This document shows, piece by piece, positions 17,695 to 59,410 of a DNA stretch of 64,000 nucleotides. Position numbers and translations under genes: made by a program. Location: positions 1-64,000 of the forward strand of contig JACPKQ010000022.1 of NCBI GenBank assembly GCA_016186995.1. Reading direction: 5' to 3'. How positions within the stretch are numbered: position 1 is the first letter of the stretch; the number at the start of each line of letters is the position of its first letter. The DNA comes from Deltaproteobacteria bacterium. GTDB lineage: Bacteria > Bdellovibrionota > JACOXK01. The notes beneath the pieces are model-generated. The model was not told the DNA's origin, did not search any database, and saw only the letters and a list, made by a program, of their open reading frames with translations.

Positions 17695-17760
17695 TTGTCA
17701 TTGCGAGTATAGCGAAGCAATCTCAACACGTAAGTGTTGTCCTAGAATTCTTTTTCTACG
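17695..17760. repeat. interspersed palindromic repeat (GTCATTGCGAG...GCAATCTCAACACG family)
   Basis: Related copies at 43181-43288 and 41181-41266. Confidence 0.7.
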
Positions 17761-24589: not shown

Positions 24590-24605
24590 AAACTTTCCCT
24601 ATTTT

Positions 24606-24646
24606 CCTCTCCCTTGATGGGAGAGGATTGAGGAGAGGGTGATAGA
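24606..24646. repeat. interspersed CCTCTCCCTTGATGGGAGAGGATTGAGGAGAGGGTGATAG repeat
   Basis: Related copies at 46317-46387 and 46541-46582. Confidence 0.8.
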
Positions 24647-24713
24647 TTATAGAAATTGACTTTATGTTCTCTTTTATGATTTGATAATTTTTATAGGTTG
24701 TTGTTGTACCTTT

Positions 24714-26917: not shown

Positions 26918-27000
26918 ACCTTGTTATCCAGGGCTTTTCTTTTTGTCATCCCAAGGCCCTGACCGGGGGATCCAGATTCTTCTTCAGCCTTGGTTCTTGA

Positions 27001-27155
27001 AATGGTTAGTGTCTTTCGCTTCATGGCTCGCTACACTTGTCATATCGGATTCTTCATTATCCCGTAAGTGCTAAAGCACTGTCCGGGATGATAGAATGCT
27101 GAATATTTGCAACCATAGGCTGCGCTTTACTTCCGCTCCAGACACTGACCATTTC
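27001..27155. repeat. composite repeat type II (copy A)
   Basis: Ends AATGGTTAGTGTCTTTCGCTTCATGGCTCGCT ... CCGCTCCAGACACTGACCATT; inner ATCCCGTAAGTGCTAAAGCACTGTCCGGGAT palindrome. Confidence 0.85.
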
Positions 27156-27220
27156 CGAACATGGTTGCGAATTATGTCATGTTTATGAAAGAATCTAAAC
27201 TCGAGAATAAAACTATAGGG

Positions 27221-27420
27221 CAAAAGATATAAAGAGGTGGGACTGTGTTTCAAAAAAACCTTCTCGCAGGCCAAAGCGGGCATGGATTTTTTACGAAGTG
27301 AAAAAGAGCGTCGGCCGAGAGAGAGCGCAAAATTCTCGCAGGGAATTTTGATAGCGTGTTTTTGAGAAATACAGTCCCACCGATGTAATATATCGAGGGA
27401 AGTACTATCCCTATCTTTTG
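27221..27420. repeat. composite repeat type I (variant interior)
   Basis: Shares GGCAAAAGATA start and GAAGTACTATCCCTATCTTTTG end with other type I copies; interior GTGGGACTGTGTTTC/GAAATACAGTCCCAC inverted repeat. Confidence 0.75.
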
Positions 27421-27488
27421 TGGCCACTTCAAGAACCTAAAGTTGTTGGGATCATTCCAAGAATCTAGCGATGGGACCGCCATAGTTT

Positions 27489-28430
27489 TCAATAGAAATT
27501 TGTTCTAAACTCATATATGGGAGAAAGATTTTTTTCTTGGGAAATGATTTTGTAATAGTAGGTTTGGTTGGATTCTAAATTTTCAAATTTTATTTTATAT
27601 TCTTTTAAAGGTTTTTGTTGGTCTATTTTTTTCTCTAAATTTTTAGTTTTTCCATAGTATATAGTAATGGGTGCTTCTTGGTTAAGTATAATTTCTAAAA
27701 GGGCTGAGTGTGATGTAATTTGTGAAACTGTTGGAGAAAGCTCTAATTCAATTGTTAGGGGTTTTTTGGTTAGCTCTGGTGTCATTCCTTCAAACAGTTG
27801 AGACATTTTTTTAGCACCCGATGCATTTTGAATTTCTACTTTAAAAAAATACTTTGTTTGTGGTTTTAAATCTTCTAAATCAATTTCATGTTTTTCACCA
27901 AGAACCAGAACTTCTTGAGACTGTTGTAAATTTGTATCTGTTCCATAACGAATAGTTCCAACAGTTGGAACGTTTGTTTCCCAATAAAGTTTTGCCATTC
28001 CGTTATGGGCTTCAAACTGAGGTTGTTTTGCAAAAAGTGGATAAAGCTGTGGAAGTTTAAGTTTTGTTTTAAAGCTATAAATTTGGGTATTTATCTCTTT
28101 TCCTGCATTATTTTTAAGAGTCAGTTTGAAGTAATACTGTGTGTTAGGAGAAAGATTTTGAAGTTTTACTCTATGAAATTTTGCATTAGGAGAATCTATT
28201 TTTAAGTTAAGAAGATTAACATTGTGACCATAGTAAAGCATTGCGGAGGCAAGTTCATCAGACATCCATTCAATAGAAACATGATTTGTTTCAATGAGGT
28301 TTACAACAGGAGCTGATTCAAAAGAAAGTGCCTTTAACCATAATGGAAATAGGAATATGATAATCAAAAAGGTAGCGCTCAAAAAGCCCTTTCCCCAGAA
28401 TCCGAATTTTTGTTCTTTCAGAGATAGCAA
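27489..28430 (-). CDS. secreted or anchored protein with three fibronectin-type-III-like domains
   Basis: Fn3 ends NLSPNTQYYFKLTL, DLKPQTKYFFKVEI, NLESNQTYYYKII. The track ORF extends to 28697 but that N-terminus is largely repeat sequence; start uncertain. Confidence 0.65.
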   Translation of the reverse strand: MLSLKEQKFGFWGKGFLSATFLIIIFLFPLWLKALSFESAPVVNLIETNHVSIEWMSDELASAMLYYGHNVNLLNLKIDSPNAKFHRVKLQNLSPNTQYYFKLTLKNNAGKEINTQIYSFKTKLKLPQLYPLFAKQPQFEAHNGMAKLYWETNVPTVGTIRYGTDTNLQQSQEVLVLGEKHEIDLEDLKPQTKYFFKVEIQNASGAKKMSQLFEGMTPELTKKPLTIELELSPTVSQITSHSALLEIILNQEAPITIYYGKTKNLEKKIDQQKPLKEYKIKFENLESNQTYYYKIISQEKNLSPIYEFRTNFY

Positions 28431-28571
28431 TAGTACTTCCTTCGGGTACGCCGTCGCTTTTTTCCTGCGAAAAAGCGCGGCTCGCGTCTCAGGCAATCTG
28501 CTGCATATTCTATGCAGACCAAGCCAGATTGCCTTCCGACACGACCCTCTGTAAGTACTATCCCTATCTCT
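28421..28571. repeat. composite repeat type I (copy 1)
   Basis: AGATAGCAATAGTACTTCCTTCGGGTACGCCGTCGC...CCTTCCGACACGACCCTCTGTAAGTACTATCCCTATCTC. Confidence 0.88.
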
Positions 28572-28732
28572 TAAACTAAATTTTGAGTTCATGTGAGAAG
28601 TCTTGGGGTGTGAAGCATTCTGACGCAACATAAAATTACCTGGTGTATTTTGAGTGGCCGAAGGCTTTTTGAGCGCGGTCATAAAAAAATGTTTCATTTA
28701 CTCCCCTTCATTTTCGAAGTACGATTGTATTT

Positions 28733-42931: not shown

Positions 42932-42987
42932 GTATTTTGAGTACACACTTCGTTTTCATTTGTCATCTCTGTTGCCACACAGTTTTA

Positions 42988-43140
42988 AGAGACAGGGATA
43001 GTTGCTTCCCTCGGGTACGGCGTCACTTTTTTCCTGCGAAAAAGTGCGCCTCGCGTCTCAGGTAATCTGCCGCATATACTATGCGGACCAAGCCAGATTA
43101 CCTTCCGACACGACCCTCAGTAAGCATTATCCCTATCTCT
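42988..43140. repeat. composite repeat type I (copy 2)
   Basis: Near-identical in order to copy 28421-28571. Confidence 0.88.
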
Positions 43141-43180
43141 TTAAATACACTTCGAGTTTATGTTAAAAAATGGTCTGGCT

Positions 43181-43288
43181 GTCATCGCGAGGGTTCTTAA
43201 AGAACCCGTGGCGATCTCAACACGCAAGTGTTGTCCTAGAATTGCTAAAGCAATTCTAGGAGATTGCTTCGCTACGCTCGCAATGACA
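43181..43288. repeat. GTCATCGCGAGGG...GCTCGCAATGAC palindromic repeat (long form)
   Basis: Shares CAACACG(C/T)AAGTGTTGTCCTAGAATT with 17695-17760. Confidence 0.8.
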
Positions 43289-43625
43289 CGTATCCATGAG
43301 AGAGTAGGCTACTCAGAACCAAGATTGTAGAAAAAGATGGATCCTTCGCTTCACTTGAGGCATGACAGCGAGCCATGAAGCGGAAGATAGTAACCATTTT
43401 AAGAACCTAAGTTTAAGAGATAGAGAAAGTGCTGTATAGAAACTAGTCACACGCTCAAGATTTTTTTGATTCATCTAACCTATTGAAATAATTAGATTTA
43501 ATAAAAAACCGTATAAAAATAATGCATTTCTACACCCATCTATAAGCAAATAGGGGTTTTCATTTTTTTGGGGTTTATTGCCTTAAGTACTTAAAATTAA
43601 ATCGGTTTTTATGTTTTTTTTATAC

Positions 43626-46299: not shown

Positions 46300-46316
46300 A
46301 TTTTGTCCTTAATTTT

Positions 46317-46387
46317 TCCCTCCCATCAAGGGAGGGAACTAAAGGGAGGGTGAAAAACTATCACCCTCTCCTCAGTCCTCTCGCGCC
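46317..46387. repeat. CCCTCCCATCAAGGGAGGG...ATCACCCTCTCCTCAGTCCTCTCGCG repeat
   Basis: Family of 24606-24646. Confidence 0.75.
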
Positions 46388-46540
46388 TTTTTTTTGATCA
46401 AACAAGCTATATTTGGTATAATTGTAGAAGTTGCGCGTGTGTTGGTTGTTTATGTTCTATAATCTATAAGTTGTTGAAATTCCCTTATATTTGAGGTTAA
46501 TGCCAAAATTTTGATGAATATGCCCCTTACACCTTGATCT

Positions 46541-46582
46541 TCCTCTCCCTTGAGGGGAGAGGATTGAGGAGAGGGTGATAGC
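46541..46582. repeat. CCTCTCCCTTGAGGGGAGAGGATTGAGGAGAGGGTGATAG repeat
   Basis: Near-identical to 24606-24646. Confidence 0.85.
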
Positions 46583-46657
46583 TTTTTAGAAGACTGTCGC
46601 ATCAAATGTTAATAGAATTGTGTAGTTTTCCGATAAGAAGGCCTAAGGAGTGTTATT

Positions 46658-51043: not shown

Positions 51044-51089
51044 AAGCCAGGGTCTAGTATTTCTCTTTTTACAACTTTAAGTTCTTAAA

Positions 51090-51245
51090 AATGGTTACTA
51101 TCTTTCGCTTCATGGCTCGCTGTAGTTGTCCCACATGAATTTCGCTTTATCCCGTAAGTGCTAAAGCACTGTCCGGGATGAGAGAGTTCTGAATATTTAC
51201 GAACTTTGGGCTGTGCTTTACTTCCGCTCCAGATAGTAACCATTT
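51090..51245. repeat. composite repeat type II (copy B)
   Basis: AATGGTTACTATCT...AGATAGTAACCATT terminal inverted repeats; inner palindrome. Confidence 0.88.
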
Positions 51246-51280
51246 TTTCACATGAACTCGAAATAGATCTATAGGGCAAA

Positions 51281-51501
51281 AGATAGGGATAGTGCTTACA
51301 GAGGGTCGTGTCGGAAGGAAATCTGGCTTGGCCCACATAGAATATGTGGCAGATTGACTGAGACGCGAGGGCCAGGCTTTTATGAATCATTTTTTAGTTT
51401 CACAAAAATGATTCATAAAAAAGATAATTCCCGGAGCCAAATTATTTTTTCCTAATAAAAAAAAGTGACGCCGTACCCGAAGGAAGTACTATCCCTATCT
51501 T
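51281..51501. repeat. composite repeat type I (copy 3, with extra interior segment)
   Basis: AGATAGGGATAGTGCTTACAGAGGGTCGTGTCGGAAGG...GTACCCGAAGGAAGTACTATCCCTATCTT. Confidence 0.85.
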
Positions 51502-51590
51502 TTGTGCCCATTTTAAGAATTTAAGTTTGGATCATTTTTCCTGTGCTTGAAAAATGTTGAAAATCGCGTTCTTCCCTATATCATGGGGGT

Positions 51591-57819: not shown

Positions 57820-59166
57820 TTAAAAGTTTTCGAAGTTTACAGGACTCCAGGCTGGAGTTGTACAATTACCAAAGTCACTTGTCAGTTTTTTCTCAAGGCT
57901 TCCATCAGCTGTGATGATGTAAATATCTGATTTCTTTTGTCTTGTTGAATAAAAGGCTAAATGTTGCCCATTTGGTGACCAGGATGGATGTTCATTATCA
58001 CCTTCAGAAATAATTTTTGTGAGCCTTTCAATTGTGTAACCTTTGGCATCAATGCTAAAAAGATCAAAGTGTCCTTCAAGCTGTCCTGCAAAAACAATTT
58101 TATCACCTGCAGGCGACCAATCGGGTTTGGCATTATATTTACCTGCAAAGGTGAGGCGCTTAGCCTCTGTTGCGGGGCCTCTTAAATCTCGAATAAAAAG
58201 ATGCGGGTTTCCTTTTCGAGTCGAAACAAAAAGTAGTTTTTTACCGTCTGGAGAAAAAGCAGGTGAAAAATCGCTTTCACTACTTTGTGCAATGATTTGT
58301 GCCTCCTTTTTTTCAAGGTCATGAAGGTAAATATTAGGATATCCATCTCTGACACTTAAGGTTAGAGCCACATATTTTCCATCAGGTGTAAAAACCCCAC
58401 CCATGTTGAGCCCTGTTTTTTGTGAAAGAATTTCTGTTTTTTTCGTTTCAAGTGAGAAAATAAAAAGATCTAAGTTTTTAACATTTTTTTTATGCTCTGT
58501 GTAAGAAGAGAACAAAAGTTTTTTTCCATCAGGTGACCACGAAGGAAGAAGAACATAATTTTTTCTTTTTGTAAGTTGTGTTATATTTTTCCCATCATAA
58601 TCCATTACATAAAGCTCTTTGTGTCCTGTTTTATCTGAGGTAAAAGCTATTTTTGTGAGGAAAATTCCTTTTTCCCCCGTGAGTATTTCAACAAGATTAT
58701 TTGAAAAAAGATGCATGAGATGTCTTTGTTTGATTTCATGAGCCTCAAGTGTTTTTTTAAAAATAATTTTTTCTTCTTGGGTATCAAACATTTTAAGTGT
58801 AACGATGAGATTGTCTTCTTTTTTTGTAAAATTTCCTAAAATAAGAAATCTTACTTTAAGTGATCGCCATTTCGTAAAATCAATTTTTTCTTGTTTGTTG
58901 GGGTCTTCAAGAAACGACTCAGGTGGAACAAAAGTAAAGTAATTTGTGAAATCAAGATCTTGTCTTACGATAGATCTTAGCGTGAAGGCAAGTGCGGTTT
59001 CTTTTTCACCTTCTTGTACAAAGTTTGCAATAGCAATGGGGGTTTTTAGAATTTTTTTCGCAAAGATAGAAATATATGTTCTTTTATTTTTGACATCTGC
59101 TCTTGCAAGAAGAGGCAATAGTGTGATGACTACGAAAAACGCAAGAATAGCCCGTTGTCCCGTCAT
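57820..59166 (-). CDS. tolB: Tol-Pal system beta-propeller protein TolB
   Basis: Signal peptide from M at 59166 (MTGQRAILAFFVVITLLPLLARAD); WSPDGKKLLFSS / FSPDGKKLLFVSTRKG repeats. Confidence 0.92.
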   Translation of the reverse strand: MTGQRAILAFFVVITLLPLLARADVKNKRTYISIFAKKILKTPIAIANFVQEGEKETALAFTLRSIVRQDLDFTNYFTFVPPESFLEDPNKQEKIDFTKWRSLKVRFLILGNFTKKEDNLIVTLKMFDTQEEKIIFKKTLEAHEIKQRHLMHLFSNNLVEILTGEKGIFLTKIAFTSDKTGHKELYVMDYDGKNITQLTKRKNYVLLPSWSPDGKKLLFSSYTEHKKNVKNLDLFIFSLETKKTEILSQKTGLNMGGVFTPDGKYVALTLSVRDGYPNIYLHDLEKKEAQIIAQSSESDFSPAFSPDGKKLLFVSTRKGNPHLFIRDLRGPATEAKRLTFAGKYNAKPDWSPAGDKIVFAGQLEGHFDLFSIDAKGYTIERLTKIISEGDNEHPSWSPNGQHLAFYSTRQKKSDIYIITADGSLEKKLTSDFGNCTTPAWSPVNFENF

Positions 59167-59183
59167 GCGTAACCATGTGTAGG

Positions 59184-59335
59184 AATGGTCTGTGTCTGGA
59201 GCGGAAGTAAAGCGCAGCCAATGTGTGTAATTAAATAGAATGCTGGATCCCGGATAGTGCTTTGCACTTCCGGGATGACAGTGAATTTGTGTAGAACAAC
59301 TGCAGCGAGCCATGAAGCGGAAGACACCGCCATTC
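59184..59335. repeat. composite repeat type II (copy C)
   Basis: AATGGTCTGTGTCTGGAGCGGAAGTAAAGC...GCGAGCCATGAAGCGGAAGACACCGCCATT; inner ATCCCGGATAGTGCTTTGCACTTCCGGGAT. Confidence 0.88.
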
Positions 59336-59410
59336 CAAGAACTTAAGCTTGTGTTTATGTAAACTAGCCACTTCAAGAACCTCAATGTGTTATTTATCAT
59401 AATATACATT

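Follow-up and report, generated by a model that had tools for sequence, protein, structure and literature searches.

Rickettsia palindromic elements (RPEs) and their Wolbachia counterparts are palindromes of about 105-146 bp that reside in intergenic regions and also in frame within conserved genes, where they are tolerated by the protein (PMC2229807, PMC10969869), and RPEs have been summarized as carrying a terminal inverted repeat of 12 bp (PMC2229807). Among the streptococcal repeats (BOX, RUP, and SPRITE), BOX has an inner boxB that is flanked by alternative outer modules, either boxA/C or boxE/F, and repeats are found inserted in one another (PMC3049150). REPINs are hairpin-forming inverted repeats with compensatory stem changes (PMC3116915), and in the mitochondria of Nematomorpha long perfect inverted repeats lie inside genes with both arms coding (PMC6649704). 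Template switching between inverted repeats is reported to homogenize their arms and to invert their spacers, both arms being changed to match in one event, and in quasipalindromes it also operates in coding DNA (PMC8604942).

In this study, we describe two composite repeats in a stretch of 64,000 nucleotides, referred to as the window. They have been assembled locally from palindromic elements that occur throughout the class and resemble RPEs and BOX repeats, and fixed ends are missing outside the genome of the window (G000, a 1.68-Mb draft in 30 contigs, 93% complete). The initial annotation had reported a type II unit (here A) followed by a type I unit at two places, and direct reading of the letters confirmed both, at 26985-27442 and 51073-51527. 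The composites have the outer ends (L...L') and the A unit in common while their type I interiors differ, and they are connected by direct repeats without gaps (63, 64, 52, and 42 nt long, 75-88% identical), which is far above chance. The right box that lies between A and B, designated R (CCATTT..CACATRNNNNCGAAT), is asymmetric. The annotation of the composites, their parts and the related units is provided in Table 1.

TABLE 1. Positions of the composite repeats, their parts and related units in the window.
Feature	Position	Strand	Sequence and remarks
Composite 1	about 26985-27450	+	L - A - R - link - B (B1-beta within B2 outer ends) - L'; RNA fold z = -5.5
L box (outer end), composite 1	26988-27005	+	CCTTGGTTCTTGAAATGG
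A (type II) unit, composite 1	27001-27153	+	Stem AATGGTTAGTGTCT/AGACACTGACCATT; conserved internal strands TTTCGCTTCATGGCTCGC, GGCTGCGCTTTACTTCCGCTCC
Apical palindrome of A, composite 1	27060-27088	+	TCCCGTAAGTGCTAAAGCACTGTCCGGGA; other palindromes or none in other A copies
R box, composite 1	27149-27175	+	CCATTTCCGAACATGGTTGCGAATTATG
Type I unit, composite 1	27221-27420	+	GTGGGACTGTGTTTC stem
Left outer-end remnant of B2-type unit, composite 1	27221-27229	+	CAAAAGATA; from comparison with B2 copies
B1-beta unit, composite 1	27236-27381	+	Own arms GGTGGGACTGTGTTTC/GAAATACAGTCCCACC; core 27254-27363; B1 covariance model 110 bits, E 4e-24 (model contains a near-identical copy)
Right outer end of B2-type unit, kept, composite 1	27394-27420	+	CGAGGGAAGTACTATCCCTATCTTTTG; within a direct repeat common to both composites
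L' (inverted outer end), composite 1	27424-27442	+	CCACTTCAAGAACCTAAAG
Composite 2	51073-51527	+	L - A - R - B2 (with module C) - L'; RNA fold z = -8.2
L box, composite 2	51073-51094	+	Read directly
A (type II) unit, composite 2	51090-51244	+	Stem AATGGTTACTATCT/AGATAGTAACCATT; compensatory differences relative to composite 1
B2 unit (type I), composite 2	51277-51504	+	Terminal inverted repeat CAAAAGATAGGGATAG/CTATCCCTATCTTTTG
Module C in B2, composite 2	about 51371-51456	+	Hairpin CTTTTATGAATCATTTTT-TAGTTTCAC-AAAAATGATTCATAAAAAAG plus tail
L', composite 2	51507-51527	+	Read directly
Stand-alone B2 unit	28410-28577	-	Core 28442-28549; fold z -9.5; B1 model 49 bits, E 2e-9, held out
Stand-alone B2 unit	42979-43146	-	Core 43011-43118; matched by B1 covariance model
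Stand-alone A unit	59161-59355	-	Ends at probable tolB start codon (59166, minus)
Truncated A unit with L box	43365-43418	-	Supported by inverted matches

Some of these units touch genes. The R box of the stand-alone A unit abuts the probable start codon of tolB (CACATGGTTACGC and ATGACGGGACAACGG... on the two sides of the junction), where no obvious ribosome-binding site was seen, and at its annotated length the tolB ORF runs through the entire unit. The B2 unit at 28410-28577 lies inside the N-terminal part of an ORF (27489-28697) with purple-acid-phosphatase/Fn3 domains, the start of which may precede or follow the unit. The window also contains a second palindrome family with its own inner modules (GTCATTGCGAGCG..AGCAATC / CTCGCAATGACA; 43180-43290 and 17717-17749), which is scattered in G000, and a further short repeat family (CTCTCCCTTGAGGGGAGAGGATTGAGGAGAGGGTGATAG; 24601-24648, 46312-46359, and 46537-46584).

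A BLAST search of G000 gave 63 pieces with composite 1 as the query and 76 with composite 2, and a 22-mer of the A arm (at most 2 mismatches) occurred 43 times vs. none for its reversed control. From these searches and 31 stretches fetched around the matches, in which copies were read individually, G000 holds more than 40 A units and about 20 composites. Contig ends fall in or beside B or C modules (L016, L020, L033, L039, and G000 C1:49 and C18:33), and therefore copy numbers are probably underestimated. The general order is L - A - R - link - B - L', in which L (about CTTAGGTTCTTGAAATGG) and R (about CCATTTTTTCACATAAACTCGAAT) are conserved across dozens of copies. The A stem varies by compensation (TTACTATCT/AGATAGTAA, TTAGTGTCT/AGACACTGA, TCTCAAGTCT/AGACTTGAGA, and others) and encloses two strands that are conserved and unpaired, TTCGCTTCATGGCTCGC and GGCTGCGCTTTACTTCCGCTCC. 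Different palindromes can form the tip, which is missing in some copies. In three copies (L014, L027, and L039) the entire stem was exchanged (GCTAACCTTCCTAAATTTTGC/GCAAAATTTGAAAGGTTAGC) while L, R, and the inner motifs were unchanged. Three other loci (L023, L033, and L028) had an additional upstream L box that pairs with L', as expected if L-A-R had landed inside an older L...L' palindrome. In the G000 stretches, according to crude ORF calls, element-bearing intergenic regions were divergent in about 17 cases and convergent in 5, a ratio that led us to reject a REP-like placement at gene 3' ends and that is the opposite of the bias reported for pneumococcal repeats (PMC3049150). A Phage_integrase gene that is broken (split, with an internal TAG) was found near an A unit at G000 C1:10001-10427 (L088), and an intact relative of 294 aa at C21:71933.

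Exchanges were also seen in the type I interiors of G000. The B1 core (GCGGGCATGG...TCGCAGG) occurs in three unrelated outer stems, alpha (GTTACCTAGTATGTTTTGAAGGC), beta (GTGGGACTGTGTTTC), and gamma (TATCTGAAACTGGTGTCTTTA), and also within B2 ends. The latter is a true swap, seen in composite 1, where B1-beta lies between B2-type outer ends (CAAAAGATA^TAAAGAG ... TATAT^CGAGGGAAGTACTATCCCTATCTTTTG), and again in L016, L018, and L019. Module C was present within B2 in composite 2, L013, and L030, and within B1 in L027 and L030:10895, most B2 copies being without it. The possibility that module C is a small gene (ATG AAT CAT TTT TGT GAA ACT AAA AAA TGA after CAGGAG) was rejected, given that in G001 its loop is found in other stems without that ATG. 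The elements are thus like BOX in that an inner module is kept between differing outer modules and repeats are nested; however, BOX consists of tandem segments with a conserved terminal inverted repeat and target-site duplication, whereas here the palindromes are nested, inspection by eye showed no target-site duplication, and some copies are located in genes.

The initial annotation proposed a non-autonomous element with conserved ends and swappable cassettes, the interiors being discrete modules rather than one diverged sequence. In the copies read in G000 the ends proved conserved around changing interiors, and these copies are indeed modular, repetitive, non-autonomous and without coding of their own. 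The cassette idea holds for B1 between B2 ends and for C in B1 and B2, but not for B1 and B2 as discrete unrelated modules. This was addressed with a covariance model of six B1 cores, with B2 copies held out as a test, since a joint sequence alignment of B1 and B2 misaligned the apical motif. The B1 model recovered the held-out B2 copies at E 1e-9 to 1e-5, most of them at 2e-9 to 1e-6 (values that are rough by the tool's own statement), and both share unpaired motifs, namely the internal loop GGA/GA, the strand GGCWTGG, the bulge C/GA, and the apex TCGCAGG. B1 and B2 are therefore not unrelated. They are a single fold-back core in which the unpaired motifs are kept and the stems can be exchanged, and at the structural level this is the outcome that the initial annotation had named as refuting discrete modules.

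With this model, matches were obtained in all eight genomes of the class (46 in G000 and 11, 8, 13, 3, 8, 5, and 6 in the others, with best E-values, which are rough, from 1e-15 to 1e-24), whereas 31 genomes from the rest of the phylum gave no match. Every genome used is a draft (61-100% complete) with crudely called ORFs, and the lineage is uncultured (G002 is Deltaproteobacteria bacterium GWA2_38_16). The B element is therefore a multicopy palindrome, with a core of about 105 nt plus arms and 3-46 matches per class genome. The A core, of about 40-56 nt, was frequent in G000, G002, and G004 (40, 6, and 14 matches), which represent three genera; single weak matches in G005 and in one genome outside the class look like background. 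The C loop, of about 33 nt, was found in G000 and G001 and at background level elsewhere.

Outside G000, most B copies lie between inverted arms of 20-30 bp that are unique to the locus, each core being followed by the reverse complement of what precedes it (for example TTAGCACATGCCAAGCGGTATCTATTT in L116, GAATAAAACAACTACGTTTAATTCCC in L132, and AATTTTTAAAAACATCGTATGTTCT in L121). The mean complementarity score of left and right arms was 22.7 within a copy vs. 6.8 between copies, and identity between copies was 0.50 for arms (0.44 when shuffled) vs. 0.73 for cores. The A cores of G004 likewise have copy-specific inverted arms (L191, L196, and L199). The exceptions are G000 and G003, where arms are common to the members of a family, which indicates that amplification as a unit also occurs. 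A terminal inverted repeat conserved over the whole B family was not found, the arms being unrelated between copies outside G000 and G003. The view that ends are kept while interiors change is accordingly valid within G000, but not elsewhere in the class, where the outer ends are locus-specific inverted arms.

These data bear on the origin of the elements as MITE-like non-autonomous transposons with conserved terminal repeats, moved by a transposase in trans and with interiors swapped by recombination. The terminal inverted repeats of the G000 B2 family (CAAAAGATAGGGATAG/CTATCCCTATCTTTTG) are conserved, as are the L and R boxes over dozens of copies, as such transposons would require. In other genomes, however, the ends around the same core are unrelated between copies, no direct target-site duplication was seen by eye at the flanks of A-only copies in G000, and that genome, at 93% completeness, yielded no match in searches for Y1 transposases and reverse transcriptases. 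We thus regard a MITE-like origin as unlikely. The absence of matches to Y1 (RAYT) transposase PF01797 extends to G003, G005, and G007 (with G000, drafts 61-93% complete), all of which carry B. REPINs are similar as hairpin-forming inverted repeats with compensatory changes, but their outer REP ends are conserved and they are linked to a Y1/RAYT.

In addition, 12 B copies lie within the reading frame of genes recognized by Pfam, in both orientations and for the most part between domains. The hosts are conserved protein genes: a TrpE-like gene (G002 and G005), an LpxB-LpxK fusion with the copy in its linker (G003, G005, G006, and G007), PurL (G002, G007, and G001), a kinase-PEGA protein, a PBP ahead of its PASTA domain, and CtaA. 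In four genomes (L096, L123, L126, and L132) lpxB and lpxK form a single fused open frame with a B element as the linker. In the TrpE linker of G007 an A-like core takes the place of B. The elements are thus comparable to RPEs, by the published descriptions, in palindrome size, in residence both between genes and in frame, and in being tolerated by the protein; they differ in that a conserved core is flanked by arms that are specific to one locus and follow the sequence of the gene at that place, and in belonging to another phylum.

The PurL linker is a hot spot. B is present there in G002 and, with its orientation reversed, in G007; in G005 and G006 it has decayed, and G004 has no element. 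In G003 (L179) two in-frame palindromes follow each other in the linker, sharing the loop GCGGCATTGCAATTCGAGC but not their stems, and represent a further core with variable arms. In G000 (L180) the linker holds the GTCATTGCGAGC palindrome, and the second palindrome family of the window lies in frame there. The right arm codes for aligned residues in G002, G005, G006, and G007 (VDESS, IDESL, IDKSL, and SNESL, respectively), with a similar LDDSL in G004, and the left arm is an inverted copy of the right arm of its own species. The codons on the native side are also present in orthologs with a decayed element or none. In the LpxB-LpxK linker, the LpxB-side arm is homologous among three congeners and the other arm tracks it: the two arms match at 28/29, 30/33, and 25/28 positions within a genome, and the LpxB-side arm at 22/30, 25/34, and 27/35 between genomes. 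For TrpE the corresponding values were 25/25 and 22/25 within and 20/25 and 21/25 between genomes. Where orthologs allow the comparison, in alignments of the PurL and LpxB-LpxK linkers, one arm is native gene sequence and the other its inverted copy.

It could be considered that cores insert into the loops of pre-existing hairpins, so that the arms are host hairpins. This would account for cores that are always central between inverted arms and for modules nested in the loops of other modules, as C is in B1 and B2. Nevertheless, unique arms of 20-30 bp are probably too long and too many for ordinary host hairpins such as terminators, and in PurL just one arm is homologous to orthologs and the site in G004 is without a hairpin, which makes this explanation improbable. 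The core orientation at the LpxB-LpxK site differs among congeners. Opposite orientations are compatible with either one old insertion or independent insertions at the same linker; the precise reuse of the junction favors one old insertion with concerted arms over independent insertions.

The covariation of the stems was quantified in 53 copies from seven genomes other than G000. In these, 91.0% of cells were paired, compared with 38-53% for slid partners, and 29 of the 32 pairs had changes on both sides. Such very strong covariation, together with the conserved unpaired motifs and fold z-scores of about -5 to -9.5, is what would be expected of a structured non-coding RNA (a 3' or 5' UTR element or a small RNA) with its fold under selection and spread by duplication. 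Selection on RNA should favor G-U on one strand, but mismatches were balanced in the arms (31 G-T and 24 A-C), and in the core, leaving out two columns of fixed G-T, there were 20 G-T and 32 A-C; apart from these two columns, G-T was no commoner than A-C on either strand, which argues against RNA selection. Single-sided changes were also rare next to double ones, in-frame copies occur inside genes in both orientations, and orthologous copies decay (PurL in G005 and G006). No relevant Rfam family was found in the whole window at gathering thresholds, and at 26980-28620, down to E 5, nothing relevant appeared except for one chance MS2 hairpin. A structured RNA is, consequently, a distinctly improbable explanation.

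The attC sites of integrons fold into imperfect hairpins in which unpaired bases are conserved and the tips vary. The hairpins of the elements recall this design, and G000 has the one intact and one broken Phage_integrase-domain protein mentioned above, so that single-strand (hairpin) recombination sites moved by a tyrosine integrase were also considered. Against this, the intact protein has, by size only, the dimensions of a housekeeping Xer recombinase, no gene cassettes were seen between elements, and the outer boxes of attC are conserved whereas those of the elements are not. We consider an attC-type origin extremely improbable.

The best explanation, which we hold to be moderately likely, is that these are non-coding, selfish palindromes of the RPE/BOX kind, that template switching makes or refreshes their arms, and that the composites are assemblies of them. 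A nascent strand would copy the core, fold back on it, copy the adjoining native flank as an inverted arm and then return. The arms would be made, and later homogenized, by such switching of the DNA polymerase, and the same process could invert the core between its arms. In G000, some units made up of arms and core (families A, B2, and B1) would then have been amplified whole, and units landing in one another would give the L-A-R-B-L' composites and the swapped interiors. Template switching fits the matching of the arms and the orientation of the core together, because it alters both arms at once and can invert the spacer. That arms form in this way at insertion is what we infer. The conserved unpaired motifs count against it, since they imply that some protein recognizes them, and template switching on its own requires no such protein. 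Quasipalindromes are similar in that inverted arms are homogenized and spacers are inverted, also in coding DNA, and the palindromes of Nematomorpha in that both arms are coding; in neither do the arms enclose a conserved repeated core, whereas the spacer of the present elements belongs to a dispersed repeat family. More tentatively, and at rather less than even odds, the elements may represent a mobile repeat without fixed ends, in which the core, upon insertion, copies the host flank into its own locus-specific arms and through repeated template switching keeps them perfect even in essential genes, with several unrelated cores (A, B, C, and the G003 palindrome) following the same rule throughout the class.

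Taken together, even very strong covariation of stems does not necessarily point to a functional RNA when the element is multicopy. The results suggest a small selfish DNA whose spread and arm perfection come from copying errors rather than from an ordinary transposase. Within one class there are dozens of copies of the same core whose arms are specific to the locus, orthologous sites that are filled, decayed or empty, and core inversions at fixed sites, and hence the template-switching model of insertion is directly testable in it.
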